DNA from: Tomocerus qinae
Lineage: Eukaryota > Arthropoda > Collembola > Entomobryomorpha > Tomoceridae
Reading direction: 5' to 3'
DNA: 64,000 nt
NCBI GenBank assembly: GCA_020055645.1
Contig: CM034546.1
Location: forward strand, 127,865,875 to 127,929,874
Shown here: piece by piece, positions 736 to 46,190 of the stretch
Numbering within the stretch: the stretch's first letter is position 1
How the letters are laid out: every line of letters starts with the position of its first letter
Notes under the pieces: model-generated
Seen by the model: only the letters and a program-made list of their open reading frames with translations
What the model was told of the DNA's origin: nothing
Database searches by the model: none
Program-made: the position numbers and the translations under genes

Positions 736-925
736 TATGACCATTCGTGTTTAGGGTTTAGGACTGTGAAGAACGATCTTGAGTGGTTATTTAATGGCTA
801 GTGTTGTCCACAAATTTGTTAATAGAATTTTGTTGCAAGTTTTAATGTAATTTTTAACTTAATATTAATAATTACAGCTGGAGGATCAGTTGATGAAATG
901 GGAAAAGACAAAGAAAAGGTAATAA
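1..925 (+). repeat. Inverted copy of the 5-prime flank of the JmjC gene
   Basis: The unique stretch from about 660 to 925 matches the reverse complement of about 33036-33310 with no difference that I can find by eye. It includes the 41-nt putative exon at 878-918, whose counterpart is 33093-33053. Identity stops inside the intron right after that exon, where the left copy continues into unrelated DNA and the right copy continues into the JmjC gene. The left arm is therefore most simply a truncated, recent, inverted copy of the right one. Confidence 0.9.
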
Positions 926-1268
926 TCGTAAACAAATAGTGGCTGTTTTTTGGCTACCGTAATAATCGATATAATTCCGCGTACTGAAATAATTCCATGT
1001 ACGCTGAATTATTTGGATTTTACTTGGCCATTTTGGCTGTTAATGGTAATAGTTCCGCATATCGAAATAATTCCGCGTACCTGTACCTAAAAAGATGATG
1101 AAAGATATCGAAATGTAGACAAGAGATATGTAAAGATTGGTAAAAGGTTTTTAAATTTAGATATTAATAAGTGCATGTGTACTGAAGAAGTATAATAATT
1201 GACTTTGAAGATATGTTTTGGTATCTAGCGTGACGGTAGTTTAGTTGGATTCTGTTTTCACTCTGAAA
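926..1268. other. Gene-free stretch with a short dispersed motif
   Basis: No coding sequence is seen. The motif AATAATTCCGCGTA or close variants recurs near 975, 990, 1045 and 1065, and again near 1655. The function is unknown; it may be the remains of a small repeat. Confidence 0.5.
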
Positions 1269-1639: not shown

Positions 1640-3076
1640 TATTGACTTAATGAAAAATAATTCCGCGTATCGATTCGACGTTTTTGGCTTTTTCAGGAAT
1701 TTTTTTATGTGCTTGCAACAATAATTCCTCGCGGTATGTTGTTTCCCGATTTGTTAATTGATGTTTGAAGTTAAAATGTATTTTTGATTTTATTTTATTA
1801 ATTACGGATGGAGGATCAGGAAATAGAACACAACAAGGCTCATGTACTGTGGTATTGACTGTAATTATAAAGTAAAGAAAAATGATCAAGCGATCATAAT
1901 ATGAAGTTCTTATTGTTGTATATTTTTACAAAATGTTTTAACCGTATCAATTAGATTAGTATTAGAAATTGTTAAACGTGAGTGAAATGTATCGTGTGTA
2001 CATTGTTGCTGCAACAATATTATAATTGTTTATTTTTGGAAAACTGGTTACAACTCCATGAATACTGTTCGCAGAAAGACAACTATGGTCTTAAAAATCT
2101 GGTGTAGGATTGCGGTGGATGAGTATTTACCTTCTATTGTCTATCTAAGGATGATGAAATAAATAAATAGGCGAAAGGTCTTAAAAGTTTTTAGTGAGAC
2201 GAAATCTATTTTATTAAGCTTCTAAAGATAATAAAGGAGCACGAAGGACTCCAGTGAGAGATTTCCATATTTTTCCGTAGGCATTCGTTTAAGAGAAAGT
2301 TTCTACACACAGAACAGTGTGAGTTGTTGAAGAAGAGTTGAGTGTGAGCAGAGAAGATAAGGTGGGAATTGGAGGCTGAGGTTTGATGTGGTCGTCGTCG
2401 GGACGGGAGTGTTCCGGAGAAACAATAGAATAAATTATTGAGATACACAATACATACAATGTACATAATACATATATATATTTGAATGGTCCTTATGATT
2501 ATACTGTATGACAATACTTATGTATATCCAGCTTCAGGTGCTCCCTCTACCGATTTTGTCCATACCTTCGATATTATAATTAATACATACGCATAGATAT
2601 AGAATAATGCTTACATAAAATTAAAACTTTTAAAGAAATCAGACTACTATTTGGATTTAGACTATATAGCATTACGGGTGGTATAGTTCAGGCTTTAATC
2701 TATAGACTTTGAGTGAAGGGGCTACAAAGTGCTTAGATAATTCAAAAGGAAGAAATTTTTTAACGAAAATATTAAAATAAAACTTTTAATTATTTTTGCA
2801 ATGCCACCAAAAGAATTTTTAACTTTTAGAAATGTTTAAACTATGACTAAAATAGAGTCCAAGGACAAAGGAATAGAGATAAGGACTATAATAGCGAAAT
2901 GATAATTATAATGAATGTAATATTAAGTTTCAGAAATATGTTTCCGCACAATTTCAATACCTAAACACAACAACATCTTTAAAATTTTTGCTTGTATTTT
3001 GTTTAGTTCTCACTCAAAGGTTTAGGTATAAGTCTTCCTATAAGTTGTCGTGAAACGTTGTGTAGGTAGGTTGTGA
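1640..3076. other. Gene-free stretch; decayed array-C-like fragment
   Basis: No convincing gene. At about 1665-1830 lies a diverged plus-strand relative of the unit at 33053-33190: it has the same order of a TTGCAACA segment, a TTAATTAC segment and GGATGGAGGATCAGG. The rest (1830-3076) is AT-rich with no recognised structure; open frames there look like chance. Confidence 0.5.
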
Positions 3077-5190: not shown

Positions 5191-5208
5191 GAACAACAGT
5201 TTTAACAC

Positions 5209-19964: not shown

Positions 19965-20760
19965 TCACCAGAAATTACCCGTATGTGTAATTATTGTAAT
20001 AGTATTTAGAATTGCTCTCACGTTAAATCTAAACCCTGTAAATTTTAATTTTAAAGGTAATAAACTGTTTAAATGCATATTTCTGTGCAATGTGCATCTT
20101 TGAATATGAATATATTAAATTATTAAAGTAAATTAAAGGATGTGTATTCTCGTGCAGTGGCAATAACCCCGCTTAATTATATTTTTAATTCATCATCATT
20201 CAATTTAATTTTAATAAATTGATACTCACTTATGTGGTGTAGCGATTTCAAACTATTGAATATATTGATGAAATTATGATGACTAAGGGGCTATTTTGTG
20301 CGAAGGAAAGCTGGTTTATAAATAGCAACTTTTTTATCGCTTAATTTATCACTGGACAAGCAACGTTAGTAAATGTCCTTGGTTATTGCAGCAATACCAA
20401 ATATAATGCATTGGTTAGCTCAATTATAGACCAAAGTAATGGTCACGTTCAAAGCCAATGTTGTTCGCAAACATGAAATGACTCATACCATGAGTAGTTT
20501 CAACACGTCTGAAGCAAATCTTGTTTACACAAGCATTCCTTCCCTTAGTTTTTTTTGGTTCCCACGTCTTTTGTTTAGACTATCGGCAAACATAAAATGA
20601 GTTCTCTTTTATGCTTTGTAAAAAAATGCAGATTATTCAACAACTGCTTCCTGTGTCTGGTGCTGACAATTTACAGAAGCCTATTCGATGTCCAAACGAG
20701 ATTAGCGTTTATTTAGGAAAGAGTTTCACAAATTCCTTGAATATTATTCGCGGTCCACAG
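19965..20760 (+). repeat. Dispersed repeat E, inner copy
   Basis: From about 20195 to 20760 the sequence matches 25190-25735 in the same orientation, with shared landmarks TTTAATTTTAATAAATT, TTTATAAATAGCAAC, AATGCATTGGTTAGCTC and CCAAAGTAATGGTCACGTTC, and a shared end ATTTACAGAAGCCTA. The two copies flank inverted array B like a pair of direct repeats of about 500 bp. No coding frame. Nothing is seen at 19965-20195. Confidence 0.75.
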
Positions 20761-20894
20761 AAAGCTTCTTTGTAATAAAAGCGAAATATATCATATGGTA
20801 GGCTCCGGAAAATTATATCATGGATTCTATTATTTGTAAGTCGTTTTTATCTTAATAACACTTCAGCCAAATTTAAAAATGATGCCTTAATAAT

Positions 20895-23800
20895 GATAAC
20901 CAATAAATTAGATGTTGACCCAGCTTTTATATGTAACTTATGCTTTGTCCATACAGAATAGCACCACAATTACACTTGGACATATTTTATAGACAAACAG
21001 TAGATCAATTTCTTGGGAACACTTATCTCAAGTAGGCCTTAACGATGATAAACAACAATTTAGATGTTGTCCCAGCTTTCCTACGCTTTTTGTGCTTTGT
21101 CCCTATGAAATAGTACCAGAATTTTACGTAAGCATATATTTATAGGCAAATAGTAGATCAATTTCTTGGGGACACTAATCTCAAATAGGCCTTAATAATG
21201 ATAAACAACAATTTAGATGTTGTCCCAGCTTTTCAACGCTTTTTATGCTTTGTCCCTATGAAATAGTTCCAGAAATACACTTAAGCATACATTTATAGAC
21301 AAATAGTAGATCAATTTCCTAGGGACACTAATCTCAAATAGGCCTTAATAATGATAAACAACAATTTAGATGTTGTCCCAGCTTTTCAACGCTTTTTATG
21401 CTTTGTCCCTATGAAATAGTTCCAGAAATACACTTAAGCATACATTTATAGACAAATAGTAGATAAATTTCTTGGGGACACTAATCTCAAGTAGGCCTTA
21501 ACGATGATAAACAACAATTTAGATGTTGTCCCCGCTTTCTTACGCTTTTTATGCTTTGTCCCTATGAAATAGTACCAGAATTACACTTAAGTATACATTT
21601 ATAGACAAATAGTAGATCAATTTCTTGGGGACACTAATCTCAAATAGGCCTTAATAATCATAAACACCAATTTACATGTTGTCCCAGCTTTTCTACGCTT
21701 TTTATGCTTTGTCCCTATGAAATAGTTCCAGAAATACACTTAAGCATACATTTATAGACAAATAGTAGATCAATTTCTTGGGGACACTAATCTCAAGTAG
21801 GCCTTAACGATGATAAACAACAATTTGGATGTTGTCCCAGCTTTTCTACGCTTTTTATGCTTTGTCCCTATGAAATAGTTCCAGAATTTCACGTAAGCAT
21901 ATATTTATAGGCAAATAGTAGATCAATTTCCTAGGGACACTAATCTCAAGTAGGCCTTAACGATGATAAACAACAATTTAGATGTTGTCCCAGCTTTTCT
22001 ACGCTTTTTATGCTTTGTCCCTATGAAATAGTTCCAGAAATACACTTAAGCATACATTTATAGACAAATAGTAGATCAATTTCTTGGGGACACTAATCTC
22101 AAATAGGCCTTAATAATCATAAACACCAATTTAGATGTTGTCCCAGCTTTTCTACGCTTTTTATGCTTTGTCCCTATGAAATAGTTCCAGAAATACACTT
22201 AAGCATACATTTATAGACAAATAGTAGATCAATTTCTTGGGGACACTAATCTCAAGTAGGCCTTAACGATGATAAACAACAATTTAGATGTTGTCCCAGC
22301 TTTCCTACGCTTTTTATGCTTTGTCCCTATGAAATAGTACCAGAATTACACTTAAGCATATATTTATAGACAAATAGTAGATAAATTTCTTGGGGACACT
22401 AATCTTAAGTAGGCCTTAACGATGATAAACAACAATTTAAAAGTTGTCCCAGCTTTCCTACGCTTTTTATGCTTTGTCCCTATGAAATAGTACCAGCATT
22501 ACAGTTAAGCATACATTTATAGGCAAATAGTAGATGAATTTCCTAGGACACTAATCTCAAGTAGGCCTTAACGATGATAAACAACAATTTAGATGTTGTC
22601 CCAGCTTTTCTACGCTTTTTATGCTTTGTCCCTATGAAATAGTTCCAGAAATACACTTAAGCATACATTTATAGACAAATAGTAGATCAATTTCCTAGGG
22701 ACACTAATCTCAAATAGGCCTTAATAATGATAAACAACAATTTAGATGTTGTCCCAGCTTTTCTACGCTTTTTATGCTTTGTCCCTATGAAATAGTTCCA
22801 GAAATACACTTAAGCATACATTTATAGACAAATAGTAAATCAATTTCTTGGGGACACTAGTCTCAAGTAGGCCTAAACGATGATAAACAACAATTTAGAT
22901 GTTGTCCCAGCTTTCCTACGCTTTTTATGCTTTGTCCCTATGAAATAGTACCAGAATTACACTTAAGCATATATTTATAGACAAATAGTAGATCAATTTC
23001 TTGGGGACACTTATCTCAAGTAGGCCTTAACGATGATAAACAACAATTTAGATGTTGTCCCAGCTTTCCTACGCTTTTTATGCTTTGTCCCTATGAAATA
23101 GTTCCAGAAATACACTTAAGCATACATTTATAGACAAATAGTAGATCAATTTCTTGGGGACACTAATCTCAAATAGGCCTTAATAATGATAAACAACGAT
23201 ATAGATGTTGTCCCAGCTTTTCTACGCTTTTTATGCTTTGTCCCTATGAAATAGTTCCAGAAATACACTTAAGCATACATTTATAGACAAATAGTAGATC
23301 AATTTCTTGGGGACACTAATCTCAAGTAGGCCTTAACGATGATAAACAACAATTTGGATGTTGTCCCCGCTTTCTTACGCTTTTTATGCTTTATCCCTAT
23401 GAAATAGTACCAGAATTACACTTAAGTATACATTTATAGACAAATAGTAGATCAATTTCTTGGGGACACTAATCTCAAGTAGGCCTAAACGATGATAAAC
23501 AACAATTTAGATGTTGTCCCAGCTTTCCTACGCTTTTTATGCTTTGTCCCTATGAAATAGTTCCAGAAATACACTTAAGCATACATTTATAGACAAATAG
23601 TAGATCAATTTCTTGGGGACACTAATCTCAAATAGGCCTTAATAATCATAAACACCAATTTAGATGTTGTCCCAGCTTTTCTACGCTTTTTATGCTTTGT
23701 CCCTATGAAATAGTTCCAGAAATACACTTAAGCATACATTTATAGACAAATAGTAGATCAATTTCTTGGGGACACTAATCTCAAGTAGGCCTAAACGATG

Positions 23801-25130
23801 ATAAACAACAATTTAGATGTTGTCCCAGCTTTCCTACGCTTTTTATGCTTTGTCCCTATGAAATAGTACCAGAATTACACTTAAGCATATATTTATAGAC
23901 AAATAGTAGATCAATTTCTTGGGGACACTTATCTCAAGTAGGCCTTAACGATGATAAACAACAATTTAGATGTTGTCCCAGCTTTCCCACGCTTTTTATG
24001 CTTTGTCCCTATGAAATAGTTCCAGAAATACACTTAAGCATACATTTATAGACAAATAGTAGATCAATTTCTTGGGGACACTAATCTCAGATAGGCCTTT
24101 AATAATGATAAACAACGATATAGATGTTGTCCCAGCTTTTCTACGCTTTTTATGCTTTGTCCCTATGAAATAGTTCCAGAAATACACTTAAGCATATATT
24201 TATAGACAAATAGTAGATAAATTTCTTGGGGACACTAATCTCAAGTAGGCCTTAACGATGATAAACAACAATTTGGATGTTGTCCCCGCTTTCTTACGCT
24301 TTTTATGCTTTGTCCCTATGAAATAGTACCAGAATTACACTTAAGTATACATTTATAGACAAATAGTAGATCAATTTCTTGGGGACACTAATCTCAAATA
24401 GGCCTTAATAATGATAAACAACGATATAGATGTTGTCCCAGCTTTTCTACGCTTTTTATGCTTTGTCCCTATGAAATAGTTCCAGAAATACACTTAAGCA
24501 TATATTTATAGACAAATAGTAGATAAATTTCTTGGGGACACTAATCTCAAGTAGGCCTTAACGATGATAAACAACAATTTAGATGTTGTCCCAGCTTTCC
24601 TACGCTTTTTATGCTTTGTCCCTATGAAATAGTTCCAGAAATACACTTAAGCATATATTTATAGACAAATAGTAAATCAATTTCTTGGGGACACTAATCT
24701 CAAGTAGGCCTTAATAATGATAAACAACGATATAGATGTTGTCCCAGCTTTTCTACGCTTTTTATGCTTTGTCCCTATGAAATAGTACCAGCATTACAGT
24801 TAAGCATACATTTATAGACAAATAGTAGATCAATTTCCTAGGGACACTAATCTCAAGTAGGCCTTAACGATGATAAACAACAATTTAGATGTTTTCCAGC
24901 TTCTTTATGCCATATATGTTTTGTCCCCATGCAATAGCACCACAATTACGTATGGTAACAATTTGATACATTGCCATTTAAGTTAATGTTCTAGTTAAGT
25001 AGTGAATCAATTTATCCCTACTTTGTCCCTACGAAATATCTCTACAGTAATACTTAGGCATACGTTTATAGATTAATACGAAATGAATTTCTTGGGGACA
25101 GTAATTTTAAATGGGCTACATTAGCCCATA
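20895..25130 (-). repeat. Tandem array B, inverted part (about 153-bp units, about 27 copies)
   Basis: Same family as 6440-13730 but in opposite orientation. Landmarks on the plus strand are TGCTTTGTCCCTATGAAATAG, read as part of a unit with TTCTTGGGGACACTAATCTC and GTTGTCCCAGCTTT. Units are typically 152-154 bp and alternate between a few subtypes (CAAGTAGGCCTTAACGATG and CAAATAGGCCTTAATAATG). Edge units (20895-21100 and 25015-25130) are diverged. Similarity to the consensus of the other array is moderate, roughly four of five positions by eye. Confidence 0.95.
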
Positions 25131-25189
25131 AAATCATGAATGTTTGATTAGCCCCGATTAAAAGCCTTCTCTTTGTATTATTATTAATG

Positions 25190-26060
25190 CCATGTTATTT
25201 GATTTAATTTTAATAAATTAGTACTAACCTATCTGGTGGATATGGAAATTTCATACCGTTGAAAAATATTAATGAAAGTATGAAGATTATGTGGGTATTT
25301 TGTCTGAAGAAGAAAACTCGTTTATAAATAGCAACTATATTATCGCTTGACAAGGAATGTTATTAAATATCCTTGGTTGGGAAGCAATATTCCATATTAT
25401 GCATTGGTTAGCTCATCCATGGACCAAAGTAATGGTCACGTTCGAAGCAAATGTTGTTTACAAACATAAAATAACCCCATACAATAAGTAGTTCCCACGC
25501 GAAATTGACTGAAACAGTACTTGTAGCAACAAGTATTGCTTTAGTTAGTTTTTTTAGTTCCCTCGTCTCTTGTTTACAGTATCGGCAGTTATCAAATGAA
25601 TTCCGTTTTATGATTTGTAAACAAATGTAGATTGTTCTTGAAGATAGATATAGATATTTATTCAGCAATTGCTTATCCTGTGAGCAAATGAGTCTGGCGT
25701 TGAGTATATCAGTTGGATAATTTACAGAAGCCTAACAATGGCCAACCGAAAATTGCATGCATGTGCGCATGGCGTTCTAAAGTCATTCATATTCCTTGTA
25801 TTATGTGTAATGTTTGTTTTTTATCTTCCCGTACAAAACAAAGATTCGTTGTTGTAAAAGAGTAAATTATGTGATGTTTGGAACTCATTTGTTATTAGGC
25901 ACAACATAAGATAAGCAAATGCTGAGTAATTACCATTTGTTTACAGAACTGATCAAAGGATTGTTCCTTCGGTAGATATCAAAAAACATACATACAACTG
26001 TCACGTTTTCACATTTGTAAACAAATGTATATTGGGCATTTTCTTATCTTAAGTCTGTCT
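25190..26060 (+). repeat. Dispersed repeat E, outer copy, plus a related inverted fragment
   Basis: 25190-25735 is a direct copy of 20195-20760. 25890-26060 contains ACATAAGATAAGCAAATGC and, reversed, TTCTTATCTTAAG with TTTGTAAACAAATG in between; it resembles 5570-5880 in reverse. The whole stretch has no gene. Confidence 0.65.
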
Positions 26061-26612: not shown

Positions 26613-26849
26613 TTATGGTAACTGGTTTAACTTTTGCACTAGATTTTGCAAGACAATAGTTTTTCGATCAATTTTATGCATTCTTTCCAAATGGTTTATA
26701 ATTCTCTGTGGGACGTTGGCCGTATATTTGCAAATCTTGGACTTGTATTTATGTATGGGACAAAAAGGTATGAGATTTTGATTTGCATGATCGCACTCAC
26801 CACAGTACGTGCGTGAGCTTGTGCAATCCAAATTTTTATTCTGGGTTGC
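26613..26849 (-). CDS. C5HC2-like zinc-finger exon, probably the last exon of the JmjC gene
   Basis: After an acceptor (ATTATTATTCCAG) the frame encodes 78 residues to TAA at 26613: NKNLDCTSSRTYCGEC, then NLIPFCPIHKYKSKIC, then a helical tail (VPQRIINHLERMHKID). The spacing C-x(6)-C-x2-C ... C-x2-H-x(5)-C resembles the C5HC2 zinc finger that follows the JmjC domain in KDM5 and JARID2 proteins. It lies on the same strand and downstream of the JmjC exons and array C. It reads in phase 0, whereas array C exons end in phase 1, so an intervening exon is needed. A candidate near 27229 (after TTATTTTTCAG, reading GQETDRIDMKLYQTS) does not join cleanly. A reading with an upstream hydrophobic start resembling a signal peptide is also open but less likely. 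Confidence 0.5.
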   Translation of the reverse strand, partial: ATQNKNLDCTSSRTYCGECDHANQNLIPFCPIHKYKSKICKYTANVPQRIINHLERMHKIDRKTIVLQNLVQKLNQLP

Positions 26850-27449
26850 CTGGAATAATAATAATAAACAAATTAAAATTTTAATAGAATTGCCTATACT
26901 ATTTAAAGTCACCCTTTACACTAACTTTTCGGGAAACATGGACAAATTAGATGTAGAAATACGTGATCTCTAAAATCGTAGAAAATCCTGGGATAATAAT
27001 GCAAATCTGCAAATTTCAGATTTTGAGATATTGTAATTTTTGTACCACTTGCGAAACTACATTTCGAGTTTAGAGATGAATAAAATGAACCACAGAGCTG
27101 CAGTTAAAAAATTATCTATAGTTTGATACATACATACAAGCATTGATACATATCAACATTTTCATGTAACAGAAGCAACCCTACTGGTTTGATATAATTT
27201 CATGTCAATTCGGTCGGTTTCTTGTCCCTGAAAAATAATTAAAAGGTTAATGGCTGACTCTGTACTATCGTTATTAATTAGTCATTATGGAATTATTTAA
27301 AAAGTCCATGCAAATACTGAAATGGTACATGGACAATTAAAAATTTAATCTCAGACTTAGATAAAGCAATAAATTTACAGACCTATCTATGTCTCTATGT
27401 ATGTCCGGTAGATGAGCCTAGTAAACAACTGTAAACAACACTAGCCACT

Positions 27450-30400
27450 AAATAACCATTATTTATCTGAGATTCTTACCAACTGCATTGGAATTCAAAG
27501 TAACTGCATTCTCTTCCAATTTATCCTCCGATACTCCAGCTGTAATTATTATAAAATCATAAATTTCATTCCAACTGCAACAAAATTCTATTTTCAAATC
27601 TGCAAACAACACTAGTCTTTAAATAACAATTATTTATCTAAGATTCTTACCAACTCCATTGGAATTTAAATTAACTGCATGCTCTTCCAATTTATCCTCC
27701 GATACTCCAGCTGTAATTATTATAAAAACATAAATTACATTCCAACTGCAACAAAATTCTATTTCCGAATCTGCAAACAACACTAGTCATTAAATAACAA
27801 TTATTTATCTGAGATTCTTACCAACTCCATTGGAATTTAAAGTAACTGCATGCTCTTCCAATTTATCCTCCGATACTCCAGCTGTAATTATTATAAAAAC
27901 ATAAATTACATTCCAACTGCAACAAAATTCTATATCCGAATCTGCAAACAACACTAGTCATTAAATAACCGTTATTTATCTGAGATTCTTACCAACTGCA
28001 TTGGAATTCAAACTAACTGCATTCTCTTCCAATTTATCTTCCGATACTCCAGCTGTAATTATTATAAAAATCATAAATTACATTCCAACTGCAACAAAAT
28101 TCTATTTTCAAATCTGCAAACAACACTAGTCTTTAAATAACGATTATTTATCTGAGATTCTTACCAACTGCATTGGAATTCAAACTAACTGCATTCTCTT
28201 CCAATTTATCTTCCGATACTCCAGCTGTAATTATTATAAAATCATAAATTACATTCCAACTGCAACAAAATTCTATTTTCAAATCAGGAAACAACACTAG
28301 TCTTTAAATAACGATTATTTATCTGAGATTCTTACCAACTGCATTGGAATTTAAAGTAACTGCATGCTCTTCCAATTTATCCTCCGATACTCCAGCTGTA
28401 ATTATTATAAAAACATAAATTACATTTCAACTGCAAAAAAAATTTTTTTTCAAATCTGCAAGCAACACTAGTCTTTAAATGACAATTATTTATCTGAGAT
28501 TCTTACCAACTGCATTGGAATTCAAAGTAACTGCATTCTCTGCCAATTTATCTTCCGATACTCCAGCTGTAATTATTATAAAATCATAAATTACATTTCA
28601 ACTGCAAAAAAATTCTATTTTCAAATCGGCAAACAACACTAGTCTTTAAATAACAATTATTTATCTGAGATTCTTACCAACTCCATTGGAATTTAAAGTA
28701 ACTGCATTCTCTGCCAATTTATCTTCCGATACTCCAGCTGTAATTATTATAAAATCATAAATTACATTTCAACTGCAAAAAAATTCTATTTTCAAATCTG
28801 CAAACAACACTAGTCTTTAAATAACAATTATTTATCTAAGATTCTTACCAACTCCATTGGAATTTAAATTAACTGCATGCTCTTCCAATTTATCCTCCGA
28901 TACTCCAGCTGTAATTATTATAAAAACATAAATTACATTCCAACTGCAACAAAATTCTATTTCCGAATCTGCAAACAACACTAGTCATTAAATAACAATT
29001 ATTTATCTGAGATTCTTACCAACTCCATTGGAATTTAAAGTAACTGCATGCTCTTCCAATTTATCCTCCGATACTCCAGCTGTAATTATTATAAAAACAT
29101 AAATTACATTCCAACTGCAACAAAATTCTATATCCGAATCTGCAAACAACACTAGTCATTAAATAACCGTTATTTATCTGAGATTCTTACCAACTGCATT
29201 GGAATTCAAACTAACTGCATTCTCTTCCAATTTATCTTCCGATACTCCAGCTGTAATTATTATAAAATCATAAATTACATTCCAACTGCAACAAAATTCT
29301 ATTTTCAAATCTGCAAACAACACTAGTCTTTAAATAACGATTATTTATCTGAGATTCTTACCAACTGCATTGGAATTCAAACTAACTGCATTCTCTTCCA
29401 ATTTATCTTCCGATACTCCAGCTGTAATTATTATAAAATCATAAATTACATTCCAACTGCAACAAAATTCTATTTTCAAATCAGGAAACAACACTAGTCT
29501 TTAAATAACGATTATTTATCTGAGATTCTTACCAACTGCATTGGAATTTAAAGTAACTGCATGCTCTTCCAATTTATCCTCCGATACTCCAGCTGTAATT
29601 ATTATAAAAACATAAATTACATTTCAACTGCAAAAAAAATTTTTTTTCAAATCTGCAAGCAACACTAGTCTTTAAATGACAATTATTTATCTGAGATTCT
29701 TACCAACTGCATTGGAATTCAAAGTAACTGCATTCTCTGCCAATTTATCTTCCGATACTCCAGCTGTAATTATTATAAAATCATAAATTACATTTCAACT
29801 GCAAAAAAATTCTATTTTCAAATCGGCAAACAACACTAGTCTTTAAATAACAATTATTTATCTGAGATTCTTACCAACTCCATTGGAATTTAAAGTAACT
29901 GCATTCTCTGCCAATTTATCTTCCGATACTCCAGCTGTAATTATTATAAAATCATAAATTACATTTCAAGTGCAAAAAAATTCTATTTTCAAATCTGCAA
30001 ACAAAACTAGTCTTTAAATAACAATTATTTATCTGAGATTCTTACCAACTCCATTGGAATTTAAAGTAACTGCATGCTCTTCCAATTTATCCTCCGATAC
30101 TCCAGCTGTAATTATTATAAAAACATAAATTACATTTCAACTGCAAAAAATTCTATTTTCAAATCTGCAAACAAAACTAGTCTTTAAATAACAATTATTT
30201 ATCTGAGATTCTTACCAACTCCATTGGAATTTAAAGTAACTGCATGCTCTTCCAATTTATCCTCCGATACTCCAGCTGTAATTATTATAAAAACATAAAT
30301 TACATTTCAACTGCAAAAAAATTCTATTTTCAAATCTGCAAACCACACTAGTCTTTAAATAACAATTATTTATCTGAGATTCTTACCAACTCCATTGGAA

Positions 30401-31400
30401 TTTAAAGTAACTGCATGCTCTTCCAATTTATCCTCCGATACTCCAGCTGTAATTATTATAAAAACATAAATTACATTTCAACTGCAAAAAAATTCTATTT
30501 TCAAATCTGCAAACCACACTAGTCTTTAAATAACAATTATTTATCTGAGATTCTTACCAACTCCATTGGAATTTAAAGTAACTGCATGCTCTTCCAATTT
30601 ATCCTCCGATACTCCAGCTGTAATTATTATAAAAACATAAATTACATTTCAACTGCAAAAAAATTCTATTTTCAAATCTGCAAGCAACACTAGTCTTTAA
30701 ATAACAATTATTTATCTGAGATTCTTACCAACTGCATTGGAATTCAAAGTAACTGAATTCTCTCCCAATTTATCCTCCGATACTCCAGCTGTAATTATTA
30801 TAAAAACATAAATTTCATTCCAACTGCAACAAAATTCTATTTTCAAATCTGCAAACAACACTAGTCTTTAAATAACAATTATTTATCTGAGATTCTTACC
30901 AACTCCATTGGAATTTAAAGTAACTGCATTCTCTGCCAATTTATCTTCCGATACTCCAGCTGTAATTATTATAAAAACATAATTTGCATTTCAACTGCAA
31001 AAAAATTCTACCTTCAAATCTGCAAACAACACTAGACTTTAAAGAACAATTATTTATCTGAGATTCCTACCAACTCCATTGGAATTTAAAGTAACTGCAT
31101 GCTCTCCCAATTTATCTTTCGATACTCCAGCTGTAATTATTATAAAAATATAAATTACATTTCAACTGCAAAAAAATTCTATTTTCAAATCTGCAAACAA
31201 CACTAGTCTTTAAATAACAATTATTTATCTGAGATTCTTACCAACTCCATTGAAATTTAAAGTAACTGCATTCTCTCCCAATTTATCCTCCAATACTCCA
31301 GCTGTAATTATTATAAAATCATAAATTACATTCCAACTTCAACAAAATTCTATTTCCAAATCTGCAAACAACACTAGTCATTAAATAATAACATAAAATC
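27450..31400 (-). repeat. Tandem array C (171-bp units, 23 copies)
   Basis: Units of about 171 bp carrying the 60-nt exon described separately and an intron of about 111 bp with ACTAGTCTTTAAATAACAA and TGCAACAAAATTCTATTT landmarks. The introns vary in A and T run lengths. Seven-unit blocks at about 27600-28795 and 28797-29990 are almost identical, including a rare A8T8 run (about 28434 and 29631) and a CAGGAAACAAC variant, so a recent 1,197-bp duplication occurred. Confidence 0.95.
27480..31301 (-). CDS. Array of 23 tandem 60-nt symmetric exons
   Basis: On the minus strand every unit has the acceptor AATAATTACAG, a 60-nt exon and the donor GTAAGAATC (one unit GTAGGAATC). The first exon in transcript order is 31301-31242, the last 27539-27480. 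Read in phase 1, with the G left by the previous exon, each gives a 20-residue repeat of the type AGVSEDKLEEHAVTLNSNGV; variants have E for G at the third-last position region, N for H, A for E and similar. I found no stop and no indel in any of the 23 exon portions. The exon 31662-31544 just upstream ends in phase 1, so all exons can join in frame in any number, for up to 460 residues. The repeat is acidic, hydrophilic and likely flexible. Whether all copies are spliced in cannot be seen from DNA. Confidence 0.65.
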
Positions 31401-31543
31401 ACTATGGTCGTATAAAATCTGACCGAAGTCAACATTATAACAATTACCTAGTAACAGTTAACATATTTATCCAAAATGGCAAAAAAATGCACACCGAAAA
31501 TAATGTATTATCAAAATCAATCGAAAAACCAAAGGACGAATAC

Positions 31544-33014
31544 CTTGGGCAATTAAGCGTCGCAATTGTTCATTTTCTTCAACGCGTTTTGTATACAATC
31601 TTAAAATTTCGTCATCAACATCATGTTTTAGGTTTTGTACAAACGAGTCGAAGTCCAGTGTTCTAAATTAAGTTCGGCATAAATTATTATTTAAAAGAAT
31701 TGAAAACTAAATGCAACGTTTGAAATTGTAAAAATTACCCCAGTTCACAACATATTTCATATTTTTTGAATTTAGTCAAATTGTCGACATTTGAAAGTAG
31801 AATGTTCTTAGCAACACAAATGGTTTTGTCTAAATTGACAACACTGTGAAAAGCCCCTAGAAATTATTTAATGTATGAATTAATAAATCAATGAAAAATA
31901 ATATTTACAGATCATCGTCATGTTCAAACCTGGTTCAGTGTAGACTATTGTTCCAGGTTTTTGTAAAATCATATGATAATAAGAATAATTCCAATCCAAT
32001 ACGGCCGGAGTTAAGACTGTATTTTTATGATTCAATTCGTGGCGGCATTTGTCATTTAATTGATCGGCTTGAAAAGCAGCATCCAGAATGGGCCTATATT
32101 TTGGATGATGAATTAGCCACAATTTAGTTCCCTGTATACCCAAGTTCACACTCCCGAATTCAGCTTGCTCTAAAGAAATTGAGAAAACAGAAATGGTTCA
32201 TGGTTGTCACAGCAAAAAATTTTTCATGTTAAATGATAACGATCTCTAACTGAGAGCAGGTATAATAAGGATCAGATATCATAGGGAGTAGGCTAAACAA
32301 CTTAGGCTCTAGCTTTCACATCCTCTAGTTTTTATTGAATACAAAACAACATACCAAGATGAAAAGGTGAAAATGTTAATGGCCCTCCCAGTAGATAATA
32401 AGGGTGTACAATTCCTTCCAAGTCGAAAAGTACCCCAGGCTTTGAGGCCGCCATACCAAGAACATCGCTTTTTCCAAAAAAATACTTAAACGGACAGTTC
32501 TCCAGAGCGTGTAAATGTGTCTCTCCAGTCCACTTTTGAACATAGGTAGGTGCCGTGTTAGTGACTGCATTTTCATAGGCTTTTTTAAAGCTGTTTTTCA
32601 AATTTACGTTTTCGATAAACTTTTCACGATTTTCAGACTCTTTTCTAAACCAAACAGGGTCTCATAAAAAATCATTGCAATTCTTAATAAAAGTAAATTT
32701 AGTGTTACTCAACTGTATCATCTCAGACAATAGTACTGAAGATTTCTCTTTACCAACGTAGCGATATATTTCTGCAGGTCGATCATGTCCGACTTTAGGT
32801 GTTACAACTTCCAATTTCTCATTGTACCCTTTCAGATTAACGATGGGGTTAAAGAAAGAAGTTAGACATCGGTTTTCCAATCCAATATCATGTAAAACCA
32901 TGGATCCTGGAAATGGATCGTTCGTCAACTTTTGCTTCTCCAATAAATATTTGTTCAACTCGACTGCCATGTCAGTTGAACTGTCAAAATGTACGGAAAT
33001 CGCTGGTTGAAATC
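31544..33014 (-). pseudogene. JmjC-domain protein (KDM5/JARID2-like), one in-frame stop
   Basis: JmjC proteins are Fe(II)/2-oxoglutarate oxygenases, many of them histone demethylases. Exons: 33014-32355, 32169-31930, 31856-31739, 31662-31544; all phases fit. Exon junction 1-2 builds FSPFHLEQAEFGSVNLGIQGTKLW in two parts: the iron-binding H-x-E (HLE), the SVN and the K of TKLW that usually contact 2-oxoglutarate. Junction 2-3 builds TEPGAFHSVVN with the third iron ligand His. The catalytic set is therefore complete. Exon 4 is charged and coiled-coil-like (LRLYTKRVEENEQLRRL) and ends in phase 1, leading into the 23-exon array. Exon 1 has a single in-frame TGA at 32664-32662 between KNCNDFL and DPVWFRKESENREKF. 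Upstream, a 41-nt exon (33093-33053) does not match in phase. So the gene is damaged, polymorphic or misread at one base, and its true start is not found. Confidence 0.75.
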
Positions 33015-33052
33015 CTTGAAAACAATCCTATTATCATGTTTACGATTATTAC

Positions 33053-33093
33053 CTTTTCTTTGTCTTTTCCCATTTCATCAACTGATCCTCCAG
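33053..33093 (-). CDS. Putative short upstream exon of the JmjC gene
   Basis: 41 nt between an acceptor (AATAATTACAG) and a donor (GTAATAATCG), encoding GGSVDEMGKDKEK after one borrowed base. Acceptor, flanking intron and the first codons (CTGGAG) resemble an array C unit, so it is a relative of those exons. Its phases (1 in, 0 out) do not fit the next exon at 33014 (needs 1), so use is unproven. An identical copy lies at 878-918 on the plus strand. Confidence 0.35.
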
Positions 33094-33239
33094 CTGTAAT
33101 TATTAATATTAAGTTAAAAATTACATTAAAACTTGCAACAAAATTCTATTAACAAATTTGTGGACAACACTAGCCATTAAATAACCACTCAAGATCGTTC
33201 TTCACAGTCCTAAACCCTAAACACGAATGGTCATACCCA

Positions 33240-36200
33240 AAATGATTTCATAATTCATACCTCTCAAACCAGCTTTGCCTAACAGCTGTATCATATCCAC
33301 AAATGTCGAGGACATGTGTGACCTCTATTTAAAAATTTAATACCTTGTCCGCACTAGAGAGCGTTCACTACAAAAGTCATAAAACCTTAACACCACTTTT
33401 CATGCCCAAATTTATTTCATAATTCATACCTCTTAAACTAGCTTTCCCTAACAGCTGTATTGTATCCACAAATGTCGAGGACATGTGTGACCTCTATCTA
33501 AAAATGTAATATCTTGTCGCACTAGAGAGCGTTCTCTACAAAAGTCATAAAACCTTAACACTAGTTTTCATACCCAAATTTTATTTTATAATTCACATCT
33601 CCTAAACTAGTTTCCCTAACAGCTGTAATGTATCCACAAATTTCGAGGACATGTATGACCTTTATTTAAAAATTTAATACCTTGTCGCACTAGAGAGCGT
33701 TCACTACAAAAGTCATAAAACCTTAACACCACTTTTCATGCCCAAATTTATTTCATAATTCATACCTCTTAAACTAGCTTTCCCTAACAGCTGTATTGTA
33801 TCCACAAATGTCGAGGACATGTGTGACCTCTATCTAAAAATGTAATATCTTGTCGCACTAGAGAGCGTTCTCTACAAAAGTCATAAAACCTTAACACTAG
33901 TTTTCATACCCAAATTTATTTCATAATTCACATCTCCTAAAATAGCTTTCCCTAACAGCTGTATTGTATCCACAAATGTCGAGGACATGTCTGACCTTTA
34001 TTTAAAAATTTAATACCTTGTCGCACTAGAGAGCGTTCTTTACAAAAGGCATAAAACCTTAACACTGGTTTTCATACCCAAATTTATTTCATAATTCATA
34101 TCTCATAAACTAGCTTTCCCTAACAGCTGTATTGTATCCACATATGTCGAGGACATGTGTGACCTCTATTTAAAAATTTAATACCTTGTCGCACTAGAGA
34201 GCGTTCACTACAAAATACATAAAACCTTAACACCAGTTTTCATGCCCAAATTTATTTTATAATTCATATGTCCTAAATTAGCTTTCCCTAACAGCTGTAT
34301 TGTATCCACATATGTCGAGGACATGTGTGACCTCTATTTAAAAATGTAATACCTTGTCGCACTAGAGAGCGTTCACTACAAAAGTCATAAAACCTTAACA
34401 CCAGTTTTCATACCCAAATTTATTTCATAATTCATACCTCTTAAACTAGCTTTCCCTAACAGCTGTATTGTATCCACATATGTCGAGAACATGTGTGACC
34501 TCTATTTAAAAATTTAATACCTTGTCGCACTAGAGAGCGTTCACTACAAAAGTCATAAAACCTTAACACCAGTTTTCATGCCCAAATTTATTTCATAATC
34601 CATATGTCCTATACTAGCTTTCCCTAACAGCTGTATTGTATCCACAAATGTCGAGGACATGTGTGACCTCTATCTAAAAATGTAATATCTTGTCGCACTA
34701 GAGAGCGTTCTCTACAAAAGTCATAAAACCTTAACACTAGTTTTCATACCCAAATTTATTTCATAATTCATATCTCCTAAACTAGCTTTCCCTAACAGCT
34801 GTATTGTATCCACTAATGTCGAGGACATGTGTGACCTTTATTTAAAAATTTAATACGTTGTCGCACTAGAGAGCGTTCACTACAAAAGTCATAAAACCTT
34901 AACACCAGTTTTCATACCCAAATTTATTACATTATTCATATCTCCTAAACTAGCTTTCCCTAACAGCTGTTTCATATCCACAAATGTCGAGGACATGTGT
35001 GACCTCTATTTAAAAATGTAATACCTTGTCGCACTAGAGAGCGTTCACTACAAAAGTCATAAAACCTTAACACCAGTTTTCATGCCCAAATTTAATTCAT
35101 AATCCATATGTCCTATACTAGCTTTCCCTAACAGCTGTATTGTATCCACAAATGTCGAGGACATGTGTGACCTCTATTTAAAAATTTAATACCTTGTCGC
35201 ACTATAGAGCGTTCACTACAAAAGTCATAAAACCTTAACACCAGTTTTCATGCCCAAATTTATTTCATAATTCATATGTCCTAAACTAGCTTTCCCTAAC
35301 AGCTGTATCATATCCACAAATGTCGAGGGACATGTGTGACCTCTATTTAAAAATGTAATACCTTGTCGCACTAGAGAGGGTTCCCTACAAAAGTCTGAAA
35401 ACCTAAACACTAGTTTTCATACCCAAATTTATTTCATAATTCATACCTCTTAAACTAGCTTTCCCTAACAGCTGTATTGTATCTACAAATGTCGACGACA
35501 TGTGTGACCTTTATTTAAAAATTTAATACCTTGTCGCACTAGAGAGCGTTCACTACAAAAGTCATAAAACCTTAACACCAGTTTTCATACCCAAATTTGT
35601 TTCATAATTCATATCTCCTAAACTAGCTTTCCCTAACAGCTGTATTGTATCCACTAATGTCGAGGACATGTCTGACCTTTATTTAAAAATTTAATACCTT
35701 GTCGCACTAGAGAGCGTTCACTACAAAAGTCATAAAACCTTAACACCAGTTTTCATACCCAAATTTATTACATTATTCATATCTCCTATACTAGCTTTCC
35801 CTAACAGCTGTTTCATATCCACAAATGTCGAGGACATGTGTGACCTCTATTTAAAAATTTAATACCTTGTCGCACTAGAGAGCGTTCACTACAAAATACA
35901 TAAAACCTTAACATTAGTTTTCAAACCCAAATTTATTTCATAATTCATACCTCTTAAACTAGCTTTCCCTAACAGCTGTATTGTATCCACATATGTCGTG
36001 GACATGTGTGACCTCTATTAAAATATTTAATACTAGTCGCACTAGAGAGCGTTCACTACAAAATACATAAAACCTTAACACCAGTTTTCATGCCCAAATT
36101 TAATTCATAATCCATATGTCCTATACTAGCTTTCCCTAACAGCTGTATTGTATCCACAAATGTCGAGGACATGTGTGACCTCTATTTAAAAATTTAATAC

Positions 36201-38625
36201 CTTGTCGCACTATAGAGCGTTCACTACAAAAGTCATAAAACCTAAACACTAGTTTTCATACCCAAATTTATTTCATAATTCATACCTCTTAAACTAGCTT
36301 TCCCTAACAGCTGTATTGTATCCACATATGTCGAGGACATGTGTGACCTCTATTTAAAAATTTAATACCTTGTCGCACTAGAGAGCGTTCACTACAAAAG
36401 TCATAAAACCTTAACACCAGTTTTCATGCCCAAATTTATTTCATAATCCATATGTCCTATACTAGCTTTCCCTAACAGCTGTATTGTATCCACAAATGTC
36501 AAGGACATGTCTGACCTTAATTTAAAAATAATTTAATACCTTGTCGCACTAGAGAGCGTTCTCTACAAAAGTCATAAAACCTTAACACTAGTTTTCATAC
36601 CCAAATTTATTTCATAATTCATATCTCCTAAACTAGCTTTCCCTAACAGCTGTATTGTATCTACAAATTTCGAGGACATGTGTGAACTCCATTTAAAAAT
36701 TTAATACCTTGTCGCACTAGAGAGCGTTCAATACAAAATACATAAAACCTTAACACCAGTTTTCATGCCCAAATTTATTTCATAATTCATATGTCCTAAA
36801 CTAGCTTTCCCTAACAGCTGTATTGTATCCACTAATGTCGAGGACATGTGTGACCTTTATTTAAAAATTTAATACGTTGTCGCACTAGAGAGCGTTCACT
36901 ACAAAAGTCATAAAACCTTAACACCAGTTTTCATACCCAAATTTATTACATTATTCATATCTCCTAAACTAGCTTTCCCTAACAGCTGTATTGTATCTAC
37001 AAATGTCGACGACATGTGTGACCTTTATTTAAAAATTTAATACCTTGTCGCACTAGAGAGCGTTCACTACAAAAGTCATAAAACCTTTACACCAGTTTTC
37101 ATACCCAAATTTATTACATTATTCATATCTCCTAAACTAGCTTTTCCTAACAGCTGTTTCATATCCACAAAATGTCGAGGACATGTGTGACCTCTATTTA
37201 AAAATTTAATACCTTGACGCACTAGAGAGCGTTCACTACAAAAGTCATAAAACCTTAACACCAGTTTTCATGCCCAAATTTATTTCATAATTCATATGTC
37301 CTAAACTAGCTTTCCCTAACAGCTGTATCATATCCACAAATGTCGAGGACATGTGTGACCTCTATATAAAAATGTAGTGCCTTGTCGCACTAGAGAGCGT
37401 TCCCTACAAAAGTCTGAAAACCTTAACACTGGTTTTCATACCCAAATTTATTTTATAATTCATATCTCTTAAACTAGCTTTCCGTTACAGCTGCTGTGTT
37501 GTATCCACTAATGTCGAGGACATGTCTGACCTTTATTTAAAAATTTAATACCTTGTCGCACTAGAGAGCGTTCTCTACAAAAGTCATAAAACCTTAACAC
37601 TAGTTTTCATACCCAAATTTTATTTTATAATTCACATCTCCTAAACTAGTTTCCCTAACAGCTGTATTGTATCCACAAATGTCGAGGACATGTGTGACCT
37701 CTATCTAAAAATGTAATACCTTGTCGCACTAGAGAGCGTTCACTACAAAAGTCATAAAACCTTAACACCAGTTTTCATACCCAAATTTATTACATAATTC
37801 ATATCTCTTAAACTAGCTTTCCCTAACAGCTGTATTGTATCCACTAATGTCGAGGACATGTGTGACCTTTATTTAAAATTTAATACCTTGTCGCACTAGA
37901 GAGCGTTCTCTACAAAAGTCATAAAACCTTAACACTAGTTTTCATACCCAAATTTATTTCATAATTCACATCTCCTAAAATAGCTTTCCCTAACAGCTGT
38001 ATTGTATCCACAAATGTCGAGGACATGTATGACCTTTATTTAAAAATTTAATACCTTGTCGCACTAGAGAGCGTTCTTTACAAAAGTCATAAAACCTTAA
38101 CACTGCTTTTCATAACCAAATTTATTTCATAATTCATATCTCATAAACTAGCTTTCCCTAACAGCTGTATTGTATCCACAAATGTCGAGGACATGAATGA
38201 CCTTTATTTAAAAATTTAATACCTTGTCGCACTAGAGAGCGTCCTCTACAAAAGTCATAAAACCTTAACACTGGTTTTCATATCATAATTTATTTTATAA
38301 TTCATATCTCTTAATTTAGCTTTCCCTAACAGCTGTATTGTATCCACAAATGTCGAGGACATGTTTGACCTTTATTTAAAAATTTAATACCTTGTCGCAC
38401 TAGAGAGCGTTCTCTACAAAAGTCGTAAAACCTTAACACTGCTTTTCATACCCAAATTTATTTCATAATTCACATCTCCTAAACTAGCTTTCCCTAACAG
38501 CTGTAATGTATCTACAAATGTCGAGGACATGTATGACCTTTATTTAAAAATTTAATACCTTGTCGCACTAGAGAGCGTTCACTACAAAAGTCATAAAACC
38601 TTAACACCAGTTTTCATACCCAAAT
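33240..38625 (-). repeat. Tandem array A, inverted part (about 168-bp units, about 32 copies)
   Basis: Same family as 1-735 in opposite orientation. Plus-strand landmarks are ATGTCGAGGACATGTGTGACC, CTTGTCGCACTAGAGAGCG and CTTTCCCTAACAGCTGTAT. Several near-identical unit subtypes recur in no strict order. The array lies 5-prime of the JmjC exons on the same strand sense and ends abruptly at about 38625 in an AT-rich minisatellite. Open frames of about 61 codons on the minus strand (35410-35225, 37261-37076) run across the 69-nt exon-like core. Confidence 0.95.
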
Positions 38626-39095
38626 TTATTTACTTTTACTTTATTTATTTAGGGTTACTTTATTTAAATTATTTTTATTTTATTTATTTAGCGTTACTTT
38701 GTTTAAATTATTTTTATTTTATTTATTTAGGGTTACTTTATTTAAATTTGGCTTATTTGATTTATTTTGGTTTACTTTATTTAGATTTGTTTTATTTTGT
38801 TTAGATTTGTATACTTTATTCAAGTTTGTGTTTTTGTATTAAGTTTTGAGTTACTTTATTTATTTTTTGGTTACTTAATTTAGTTTAAGGTTAATTTATT
38901 TAAATTTATATTGCTTTATTTATTTTTAGATTATTATATTTAAATTTGGGTTACTTTATTAATTTTTGGGTTAGTTTATTTAATTTAGTGTTACTTTATT
39001 TAATTAAGTGTTACTTTATTTATTTTAGTGTTACTTTATTTAATTTAGTGTTACTTTATTTAATTTAGTGTTACTTTATTTAATTTAGTGCATAA
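38626..39095 (+). repeat. AT-rich minisatellite (about 19-bp units)
   Basis: Repeats of TTACTTTATTTAATTTAGTG and variants with TTTAGGGTTACTTTATTTAA, about 22 copies, most regular near 38985-39085. It directly abuts array A and lies just upstream of the first visible ADA2 exon. Confidence 0.9.
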
Positions 39096-43475: not shown

Positions 43476-44497
43476 ATGGCTACAGTAACTGAAATAAATT
43501 TTGAGACAATCGACTTGGTCACAAAGGACCCAATGAAGTTGTTCGACATTTGGCGAAAAGAGGCTCATGACCTTCCTCTAAACTACACACCGGATGCAAT
43601 GTCTGTAGCAACTGTCAAAAAGTACTGAAATAATAATTGCAAATAGCTTTAATGGATTTTGTAAAATGTTTTGTAATAATGATAATTGGTTGAAATGAAA
43701 AGGGACGGAAGTCCATCCGTTAGGGCTCTGCTGCTCCGAGGGGTTGACGAAAAAGGCTATCGCATGTTTTGTGACTACAGATCACCCAAAGGATTAGAAA
43801 TTGTGAGTTTATACAATACAATACAGTAAATATTTTAATTAAATTGGCACGGCATTAATAATACAAATTCGTTCATTGCCAGGCTGGTGATAATCGAGCA
43901 GCAGTTGTTTTCGTTTGGGCTTTTCAAAATCCGAAAGGAGATTTAGGGTGGAGACAGGTAATTGATATTAAAACAGAAAATAAGGCGAAAATTTAAAAAG
44001 TAGGTACTAAAAGTGATTGTGATAGGTGAGAATCGAAGGAGTCGTTGAAAAGTTGACAGTTCAGGAAAATCAAGAGTATTTTGATTCCGAGCCAATTACA
44101 GCTAAACTCCGAGCTAATCTACATCAATCAAGAGTCATTACAGACAATCGTCAATCCATGCGAGATGAAACTAAACGCATTCTCGACTGTTATAACGCAG
44201 ACCCTGACAATTTCAAGATTCCTATGCCGGAAACGTGGGGAGGATATCGAATTGTGCCAAACATGGTTCGTTTTTAAGTAGTAAAATACTTTTTCTTAAC
44301 TAGTGACTCAAATTTTAATGTACAGAACTGATATGTTGTCTATTCAGATGGAATTTTATCAAGGAACAAGAAATGATTTTAATGATCGTATCCGGTTCAA
44401 GAAAATTAATGCTGACGAGCCCAACAATTTTACCGATCCTGAACCTGGAGTGCACATTGCTGAAAATGAATGGGTTTACATGCAATTAGAACCTTAA
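43476..44497 (+). CDS. PNPO: Pyridoxine-5'-phosphate oxidase, copy 1 (intact)
   Basis: PNPO uses FMN to oxidise pyridoxine and pyridoxamine phosphate to pyridoxal phosphate, the last step of vitamin B6 salvage, in the cytosol. Five exons: 43476-43621, 43703-43802, 43883-43957, 44026-44265, 44348-44497, giving 236 residues with TAA. Motifs: DPMKLFDIWRKEAHD near the N terminus, DAMSVATVKKDGSPSVRALLLRG (the FMN-binding segment, in two parts), YRSPKGLE, NRAAVVFVW, VRIEGVVEKL, WGGYRIVP and the C-terminal EFYQGTRNDFNDRIRF with RIRF and the final WVYMQLEP. The length is near the family's usual 230-260. A second copy at 53619-55054 shares every intron position. Confidence 0.93.
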
Positions 44498-44974: not shown

Positions 44975-46190
44975 TTTAGTTTAGAGTCCGCTAGGGTAGA
45001 CTATCTAAGATCGGGGACAGGGAAATAGTTTAGAGTCCAATGGGTAGACTGGAGGCAATCTGGAACTAGTTTAGAGTCCAATGGATAGACTGGAGACAAT
45101 CTGGTAATAGTTTTAGAGTCCACTGAGTAGACTTAAGAAAACCGGGGAATAGTTTAGAGTCCACTGGATAGACTTAAGAAAACCGGGGAATAGTTTAAGA
45201 GTCCACTGGGTAGACTGAAAATAATCGGGGAATAGTTAAGAGTCCACTGGGTAGACTTAAGAAAATCGGGGAATATTTAGAGTCCACTAAGTAGACTTAA
45301 ATTCGGGAAAATAGTTTAGAGTCCAATGGATAGACTGGAGACAATCGGGGAATAGTTTAGTGTCCACTGGGTAGACTTAGGAAAACCGGGGAATAGTTTA
45401 GAGTCCACTGGATAGACTTAAGAAAACCGGGGAATAGTTTAGAGTCCACTGGGTAGACTGAAAATAATCGGGGAATAGTTTAGAGTCCACTGGATAGACT
45501 TAAGAAAACCGGGAAATAGTTTAGAGTCCACTAAGTAGACTTAAATTCGGGAAAATAGTTTAGAGTCCAATGGATAGACTGGAGACAATCGGGGAATAGT
45601 TTAGTGTCCACTGGGTAGACTTAGGAAAACCTGGGAATAGTTTAGAGTCCACTGGATAGACTTAAGAAAACCCGGGGAATAGTTTAGAGTCCACTGGGTA
45701 GACTGAAAATAATCGGGGAATAGTTTAGAGTCCACTGGGTAGACTTAAGAAAACCGGGGAATAGTTTAGAGTCCACTAAGTAGACTTAAGAAATTCGGGA
45801 AAATAGTTTAGAGTCCAATGGATAGACTGGAGACAATCGGGGAATAGTTTAGCGTCCACTGGGTAGACTTAGGAAAACCTGGGAATAGTTTAGAGTCCAC
45901 TGGATAGACTTAAGAAAACCCGGGGAATAGTTTAGAGTCCACTGGGTAGACTGAAAATAATCGGGGAATAGTTAAGAGTCCACTGGGTAGACTTAAGAAA
46001 ATCGTTAGAGTCCAATGGATAGACTGGAGACAATCGGGGAATAGTTTAGCGTCCACTGGGTAGACTTAGGAAAACCTGGGAATAGTTTAGAGTCCACTGG
46101 ATAGACTTAAGAAAATCGGGGAATAGTTTAGAGTCCACTGGGTAGACTGAAAATAATCGGGGAATAGTTTAGAGTCCAATGTGTAGACTT
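44975..46190 (+). repeat. Minisatellite of about 40-bp units (about 30 copies)
   Basis: Units read GGGAATAGTTTAGAGTCCACT, then GGGTAGACTTAAGAAAACC or a variant with GTAGACTGAAAATAATCG or GATAGACTGGAGACAATCG. Three to five subtypes alternate in a repeating order, so it also has a higher-order structure. It begins within 500 bp of the end of PNPO and ends about 880 bp before the PIWI start codon. Confidence 0.95.

Follow-up and report, generated by a model that had tools for sequence, protein, structure and literature searches.

A tandem array of 23 symmetric 60-nt exon copies behind a JmjC-type oxygenase gene in Tomocerus qinae

A 64,000-nucleotide stretch of the genome of the collembolan Tomocerus qinae (assembly GCA_020055645.1, contig CM034546.1, positions 127,865,875 to 127,929,874 of the forward strand; hereafter the window) holds a minus-strand gene with a JmjC oxygenase domain that runs into a 171-bp tandem array, in which every one of 23 units carries a 60-nt open exon with its own acceptor and donor, in phase with the gene. 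The best explanation, to which we assign a probability of about 0.5, is a coding exon variable number tandem repeat (VNTR), in which a symmetric exon of the JmjC gene and its intron would have been amplified in a satellite-like manner and the repeats would be encoded as a linker in the protein.

An array of in-phase exon copies

The array and its outermost exons lie at the following positions (TRF, Tandem Repeats Finder; u1 to u23, units in order of the minus strand):

27429..31388, minus strand: 171-bp tandem array of 23 exon-intron units (TRF: period 171, 23.2 copies, 95% matches)
31301-31242, minus strand: first 60-nt exon, u1, AGVLEDKLGENAVTLNFNGV, phase 1-1
27539-27480, minus strand: last 60-nt exon, u23, AGVSEDKLEENAVTLNSNAV, phase 1-1

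On the minus strand, an ACAG/CTGGAG acceptor (slash, exon border) and a GT donor bound a 60-nt exon with an open phase-1 frame in 23/23 units, the donor being GTAAG in 22 of them and GTAGG in one (at 31070). Units are spaced 171 nt apart, save for one spacing of 170 and one of 172, and about 111 nt of each is intron. All 23 exons have phase 1 at either end and are hence symmetric; they join exon 4 of the JmjC gene (31662-31544) without a stop, and the gain or loss of a unit is frame-neutral. The encoded 20-residue repeat is acidic, of the AGVSEDKLEEHAVTLNSNGV type, with ..LNSNGVAGVSEDK as an example of a peptide that bridges two repeats. An earlier reading of the same DNA, made from its letters alone (the sequence-only reading), had described 23 minus-strand units with an AG acceptor, a 60-nt open exon and a GTAAG or GTAGG donor, which holds for every unit, and the DNA pattern of 23 in-phase exon copies is confirmed as real. 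A scan of IMG/VR for the exon pattern gave no matches, the repeat peptide had only two matches in Pfam, both below cut-off (E 0.049 and 0.068), and searches of the window with Rfam (gathering scores) and ARAGORN returned nothing.

The repeated exon resembles coding exons

Splice sites were scored with matrices built from 29 introns of neighbouring genes, with leave-one-out values as the reference. The array acceptor scores 5.6 against a leave-one-out median of 5.3 and the array donor 6.7 (4.8 in u2) against 5.2, while the 111-nt intron falls inside the 60-303 nt range of the 29 neighbouring introns. The G+C content of the array exon is 0.40, compared with 0.225 in the array intron. Codon log-odds, trained on 1002 neighbouring codons, range from 0.09 to 0.27 across all 23 copies, with a median of 0.19. 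The median is the same for 702 coding 60-mers, each scored after its own piece had been removed from training; this value is reached by 0.9% of 2913 noncoding open 60-mers, where noncoding denotes unannotated stretches taken as intergenic and partly used in training. With G+C content matched, the typical copy u6 scores 0.22 bits per codon against a median of 0.26 for 410 coding 60-mers (these kept in training), a score that 3.2% of 2395 noncoding open 60-mers attain, as do 5.2% of 715 wrong-frame or antisense 60-mers. The phase-1 frame has the best codon score of the six frames of the array exon. Among open 60-mers from other satellites in the window, the u6 score is reached by 0/47 from a 153-bp unit (both strands sampled) and by 0/21 and 1/35 from the two strands of a 168-bp unit (1/56). 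Judged by its coding-level codon score, ordinary splice sites and step in G+C content, the 171-bp unit most probably has its origin in a genuine coding exon.

It is very improbable that the 171-bp unit was never an exon and is simply AT-rich sequence with fortuitous symmetric splice sites. When order-1 random 171-nt units were examined on one strand and in any phase, a symmetric open exon with equally good splice sites was found in 58/2000 units with the unit's own composition and in 51/2000 with the composition of pieces of the 3-kb interval upstream of 26849, most of which is array; at looser thresholds of 4, 691/2000 and 579/2000 units qualified, respectively. Real satellite units also qualify at the loose thresholds: 1 (plus strand) and 2 (minus strand) of 44 in the left 153-bp array, 13 and 1 of 24 in the right 153-bp array, and 20 and 12 of 30 in a 168-bp array. 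The geometry is above chance for a single unit at the strict thresholds, yet, as the window offers five arrays to be read on two strands, it is not overwhelming when taken alone; the codon signal, the G+C step and the phase match add to it. A chance origin would need to produce, besides the geometry, that phase match, codons as coding-like as the 3.2% of G+C-matched noncoding 60-mers cited above and a G+C step at the exon borders, and would have to do so alongside a second copy, about 20% diverged, that is coding-like in the same frame (the 33-kb relative described below).

The JmjC gene upstream of the array

The gene model in front of the array consists of the following parts:

32754..32970, minus strand: JmjC exon 1a, from an ATG; true start uncertain
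32661..32753, minus strand: candidate 93-nt intron containing an in-frame TGA at 32664-32662
32355..32660, minus strand: JmjC exon 1b, ending in ..FHL/E
31930..32169, minus strand: JmjC exon 2, core of the domain; low acceptor score of 0.9
31739..31856, minus strand: JmjC exon 3, with the second metal-site His, GAFHSVV
31544..31662, minus strand: exon 4, charged tail ..EENEQLRRLIAQ, phase-1 end; low acceptor score of 0.8

Exons 32970-32355, 32169-31930, 31856-31739 and 31662-31544 join in frame and finish in phase 1, which bears out the earlier statement that 31662-31544 is in frame with the JmjC exons and has a phase-1 end. The spliced 333-residue model matches the Pfam JmjC profile PF02373 at 1.7e-16 (61.1 bits, profile positions 3-113 of 114), compared with 35.7 bits when the open frame around exon 2 is taken by itself, and its best solved relatives by phmmer are JMJD6 (5e-5) and KDM4D (5.7e-5). 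In the phmmer alignment, FHLE and GAFH align with the H-x-E and H of KDM4D chain 3dxt, and the metal-site positions, which we take to be the Fe(II) ligands, are kept. The domain that led the sequence-only reading to call this a JmjC-type oxygenase gene is thus real, both by profile match and by its H-x-E...H positions. In a Pfam scan of the 333-residue model, whose N-terminus is uncertain and which may lack an exon, JmjC was the sole domain, with no JmjN, PHD or Tudor. A comparison of the JmjC peptide with IMG/VR yielded 5 stretches that fitted the pattern, of which 0 were confirmed, and the open frame around exon 2 had no match among phage records.

An in-frame TGA at 32664-32662, absent from the sequence-only reading, interrupts exon 1 unless it is spliced out. 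The 93-nt stretch 32753-32661 is probably an intron, which would make the TGA intronic: its donor (TTG/GTAAAG, 4.3) and acceptor (4.5) both score inside the leave-one-out range of the 29 neighbouring introns, the frame is kept, and its G+C content is 0.269 compared with 0.387 and 0.395 in the exon parts on either side. There are 79 in-frame bypasses of the TGA in all, and a 237-nt one has summed site scores of 8.9 versus 8.8 for the 93-nt candidate, with a G+C content of 0.325. A 48-nt intron over the TGA was rejected, as its donor scores 2.3 and it is shorter than all 29 reference introns. No other stop occurs in the 333 codons of the spliced model.

Exons 2 and 4 have acceptor scores below all 29 leave-one-out values. 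As the JmjC match corroborates the junction of exon 2, the small splice matrix underrates some true sites; for exon 4, the one further support is a codon score of 0.22.

The unit has relatives elsewhere in the window, one of them just 5' of the JmjC exons:

33037..33205, minus strand: diverged single relative of the 171-bp unit, 5' of the JmjC exons
766..934, plus strand: inverted copy of 33037-33205, 169/169 identical
1749..1819, plus strand: third relative of the unit's intron end, acceptor AG lost

The 33-kb relative (33185-33063; inverted at 786-908), which the sequence-only reading did not include, is 79.7% identical to the unit over 123 nt, and the third relative and the 33-kb copy are 77.6% identical across 76 aligned positions. 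A 41-nt exon within the 33-kb relative (33093-33053) is coding-like in the frame of the array exons (phase 1; 0.72 bits per codon over 13 codons). In this coding-like phase it cannot be joined to the JmjC frame without a stop; a phase-0 reading joins that frame openly via a weak acceptor (1.8).

These observations bear on whether the JmjC gene is dead or a fragment, with the array sitting in a decaying duplicated locus, which we consider quite unlikely. The TGA would count towards such decay if the intron were disallowed, and the unsettled gene start, with an upstream 41-nt exon that lacks a stop-free join in its coding-like phase, the weak acceptors of exons 2 and 4 and the inverted duplication of the 5' part 32 kb away point in the same direction; however, the in-frame 93-nt candidate intron, with its site scores of 4.3 and 4.5 and its low G+C content, removes the TGA, and the rest of the 333 codons are free of stops and keep the metal-site positions. 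The TGA was accordingly set aside as proof of a dead gene.

Copy variation and the case against a coding role

Two six-unit blocks within the array are near-identical:

28849..29874, minus strand: units u10-u15, first copy of a six-unit higher-order block
27651..28677, minus strand: units u17-u22, second copy of the block, with one inserted base

The two copies differ in one column over six units, and this duplicated block suggests a recent copy-number change. There are 10 distinct sequences among the 23 exons and 16 distinct units among u2-u23, and identity among the latter units is 0.90-1.0 (median 0.942).

Several observations weigh against a coding role for the array. The 23 open exons amount to about one observation, the copies not being independent confirmations. 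Variable sites are not significantly rarer in the exon than in the intron, whether the edge of u1 is masked (10/60 versus 28/111, p=0.25) or u1 is dropped and duplicates are collapsed (8/60 versus 27/111, p=0.11). The 12 inferred exon changes comprise 10 nonsynonymous, 2 synonymous and 0 stop changes, where the neutral fractions are 0.69, 0.24 and 0.06, and zero stops is expected with a probability of 0.3-0.5 under neutrality. Exon 4, which carries the phase link between gene and array, does so behind an acceptor that scores 0.8. The two strongest acceptors downstream of the array, at 27227 (9.7) and 26849 (8.8), are out of phase with it, and the candidate exons there have noncoding-like codon scores (bridge exon -0.22, terminal exon -0.24). 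Finally, the window holds four further arrays found by TRF, with units of 153-168 bp, and arrays form there regardless of coding.

Other measures of copy variation give a similar picture. With all 23 copies and nothing masked, the exon-intron contrast reaches p=0.002, the intron excess being due for the most part to the non-repeat edge of u1. Under the intron rate, a count of exon changes this low has P=0.026 in the direction of constraint, with an expectation of 20.8 that is inflated by pseudocounts. The intron GT and AG columns are invariant among the 16 distinct units of u2-u23, and invariance of four columns has a chance of about 0.4; two indels occur in the intron and none in the exon. 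Comparison of the 33-kb relative with u4 gives identities of 63/79 in the intron end, 21/30 in the first 30 exon bases and 8/30 in the last 30, so that conservation is no higher in the exon than in the intron and there is again no sign of constraint. The 23 open frames were discarded as evidence of selection, being covered by the neutral expectation. No sign of selection on repeat sequence or repeat number is visible, and the amplification is therefore best taken as near-neutral, tolerated because the exon is symmetric.

Downstream of the array, two candidate exons were delimited:

26963..27006, minus strand: candidate 44-nt bridge exon, phase 1 to 0, acceptor 6.9, donor 5.0
26613..26849, minus strand: terminal exon with a Cys/His motif, strong acceptor (8.8) in phase 0, stop at its end

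Joined to 27227, the array stays open for 20 nt only. In-frame continuations are provided by the bridge exon 27006-26963, by an acceptor at 26893 (6.2) and by a short terminal exon at 27097 (7.5) with the 13-residue end ALWFILFISKLEM, and at least two in-frame routes lead from the array to the terminal exon. The terminal exon matches no family above cut-off in Pfam or NCBIfam and looks zinc-finger-like by eye, from its Cys/His pattern. A scan of two frames of the window against NCBIfam gave matches far below cut-off only. The sequence-only reading had placed the repeat linker before a zinc finger, an arrangement that fails as a simple junction, as the acceptor at 26849 is in phase 0 and a direct join meets a stop after 4 codons. 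Its interpretation as a whole is supported in part, by the JmjC domain, the coding-like exon and the ordinary splice sites, and loses the zinc-finger junction as drawn. A separate 48-nt phase-0 stretch at 27227-27180 on the minus strand (GQETDRIDMKLYQTSR, codon score 0.2) could be spliced to the terminal exon in phase 0 if preceded by an exon with a phase-0 end, which the array does not supply.

The foremost alternative to a coding exon VNTR is a satellite lying in an intron of the JmjC gene or past the gene end, which caught an exon, or an old copy of one, that is now skipped or untranscribed and which is open because its copies are young. We regard this as possible, if somewhat doubtful: exon changes that fit neutrality, the phase clash at the strongest 3' acceptors and the presence of 153- and 168-bp arrays, inverted against each other, in the same stretch would all be expected of it, whereas the coding-like codons in exactly the frame set by the upstream phase, the ordinary splice sites in all copies and the scarcity of open 60-mers from other satellites that score as high (0/47, 0/21 and 1/35) would not. 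Mobile-element-borne satellite-like arrays, which would offer a parallel, are described in oyster (PMC7492417).

A rearranged, array-forming region

The two 153-bp arrays, mutually inverted, and the two 168-bp arrays, likewise inverted, crowd positions 1-38.6 kb of the window. From these inverted arrays and the inverted DNA that flanks them, it follows that the stretch has been rearranged and is prone to form arrays, of which the exon array is one.

The 168-bp arrays (1-934 and 33037-38631) share a 169-nt inner piece that is 100% identical, inverted and about 32 kb apart. The pair resembles long inverted repeats built of tandem units, its left outer end being cut by the window. The 153-bp arrays at 6518-13706 (about 42-47 copies) and 20884-24937 (26 copies) are inverted and 83-84% alike in the pairs listed, and surround both an innexin gene (Pfam 1.4e-22) and an open frame with an AAA domain (1e-10). 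Diverged duplicates also occur both inverted (5432-5677 and 26208-25962, 79%) and direct (20180-20638 and 25179-25637, 75%). On the minus strand, 3400-5247 contains neighbouring orphan open frames, of which two begin alike by eye; a Pfam scan of frames 3400-4224 and 4345-4974 gave no family, and one orphan frame had no match in PADLOC. Further along, a pyridoxamine-phosphate oxidase-like gene (by eye) at 43500-44497 has a diverged second copy at 53631-55054 (65-71% DNA identity), and a 41-bp tandem array of about 29 copies (45020-46190) lies upstream of a gene that is by eye of Piwi/Argonaute type and has a PAZ domain at 48064-48642 (Pfam 1.6e-35).

Comparison with known systems

Two features of coding exon VNTRs are present in the array, namely a whole exon plus intron in each unit (23/23) and a frame that is kept when units change. 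For example, kringle IV type 2 of human LPA, as described in PMC11462820, consists of near-identical tandem units of whole exons and introns (5.6 kb per unit, 1 to about 40 units), whose number changes protein length without changing the frame. In contrast, the unit in T. qinae is 171 bp with one 60-nt exon, more than 30 times shorter, its host is a JmjC oxygenase gene, and it is known from DNA alone. Similarly, schistosome micro-exon genes, in the account of PMC8293314, encode host-exposed proteins and contain runs of short symmetric exons, mainly of 36 bp or less, that can be removed without loss of frame; here, unlike in that account, 23 copies of one exon follow an enzyme domain, and at 60 nt this exon exceeds 36 bp.

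The JmjC domain itself (61.1 bits), with the H-x-E and later H that align to KDM4D, resembles those of KDM4/JMJD6-type oxygenases. The JmjN domain that precedes JmjC in KDM4, like PHD and Tudor, was not found by Pfam in the 333-residue model with its uncertain N-terminus, and a charged tail and an exon array lie behind the domain. Helentron-type elements carry arrays that are not known to be coding, in some of them with unit sizes of about 150-170 bp. The satellite-like central repeats of non-autonomous Helentrons are tandem arrays dispersed through the genome (PMC7492417), and in the window the arrays alone are seen.

Among the open-access matches listed, a literature with most subscription papers outside it, no JmjC gene of this build was found, which is weak evidence of absence; the available portion of PMC1949830 describes no such JmjC gene, and for tandem exon arrays in general nothing closer appeared among the open-access matches listed. 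The gene structure in T. qinae is real and unusual and, in principle, kin to known coding exon VNTRs, and its array may serve as coding sequence.

Proposed origin and implications

In the coding exon VNTR that we favour, a minus-strand JmjC oxygenase gene would once have had a single 60-nt exon of phase 1-1 past its catalytic exons. This exon and its 111-nt intron would then have become a tandem unit, reaching 23 copies through unequal exchange and block duplication. Because a symmetric exon holds the frame at any copy number, satellite-style growth inside the gene is permitted, and with splice sites kept in all copies each inclusion or skip would be frame-neutral. Transcripts, if made, would encode the JmjC domain followed by 0 to 23 acidic 20-residue linker repeats, and copy number may vary. 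A further proposal, that the satellite-sized exon array sets the linker length of a chromatin-type JmjC oxygenase, with unequal exchange altering the exon number from one individual to another and skipping among the near-identical exons producing a ladder of protein lengths from a single gene, is unlikely on present evidence, and if true it would make a satellite-like process a direct control on a chromatin enzyme.

If the array is transcribed, it would be a natural test of how the splicing machinery deals with 23 near-identical consecutive 60-nt exons, and the gene would encode a JmjC enzyme with a length-variable linker. It would also show a satellite-like array turning into protein sequence harmlessly by way of a symmetric exon unit.

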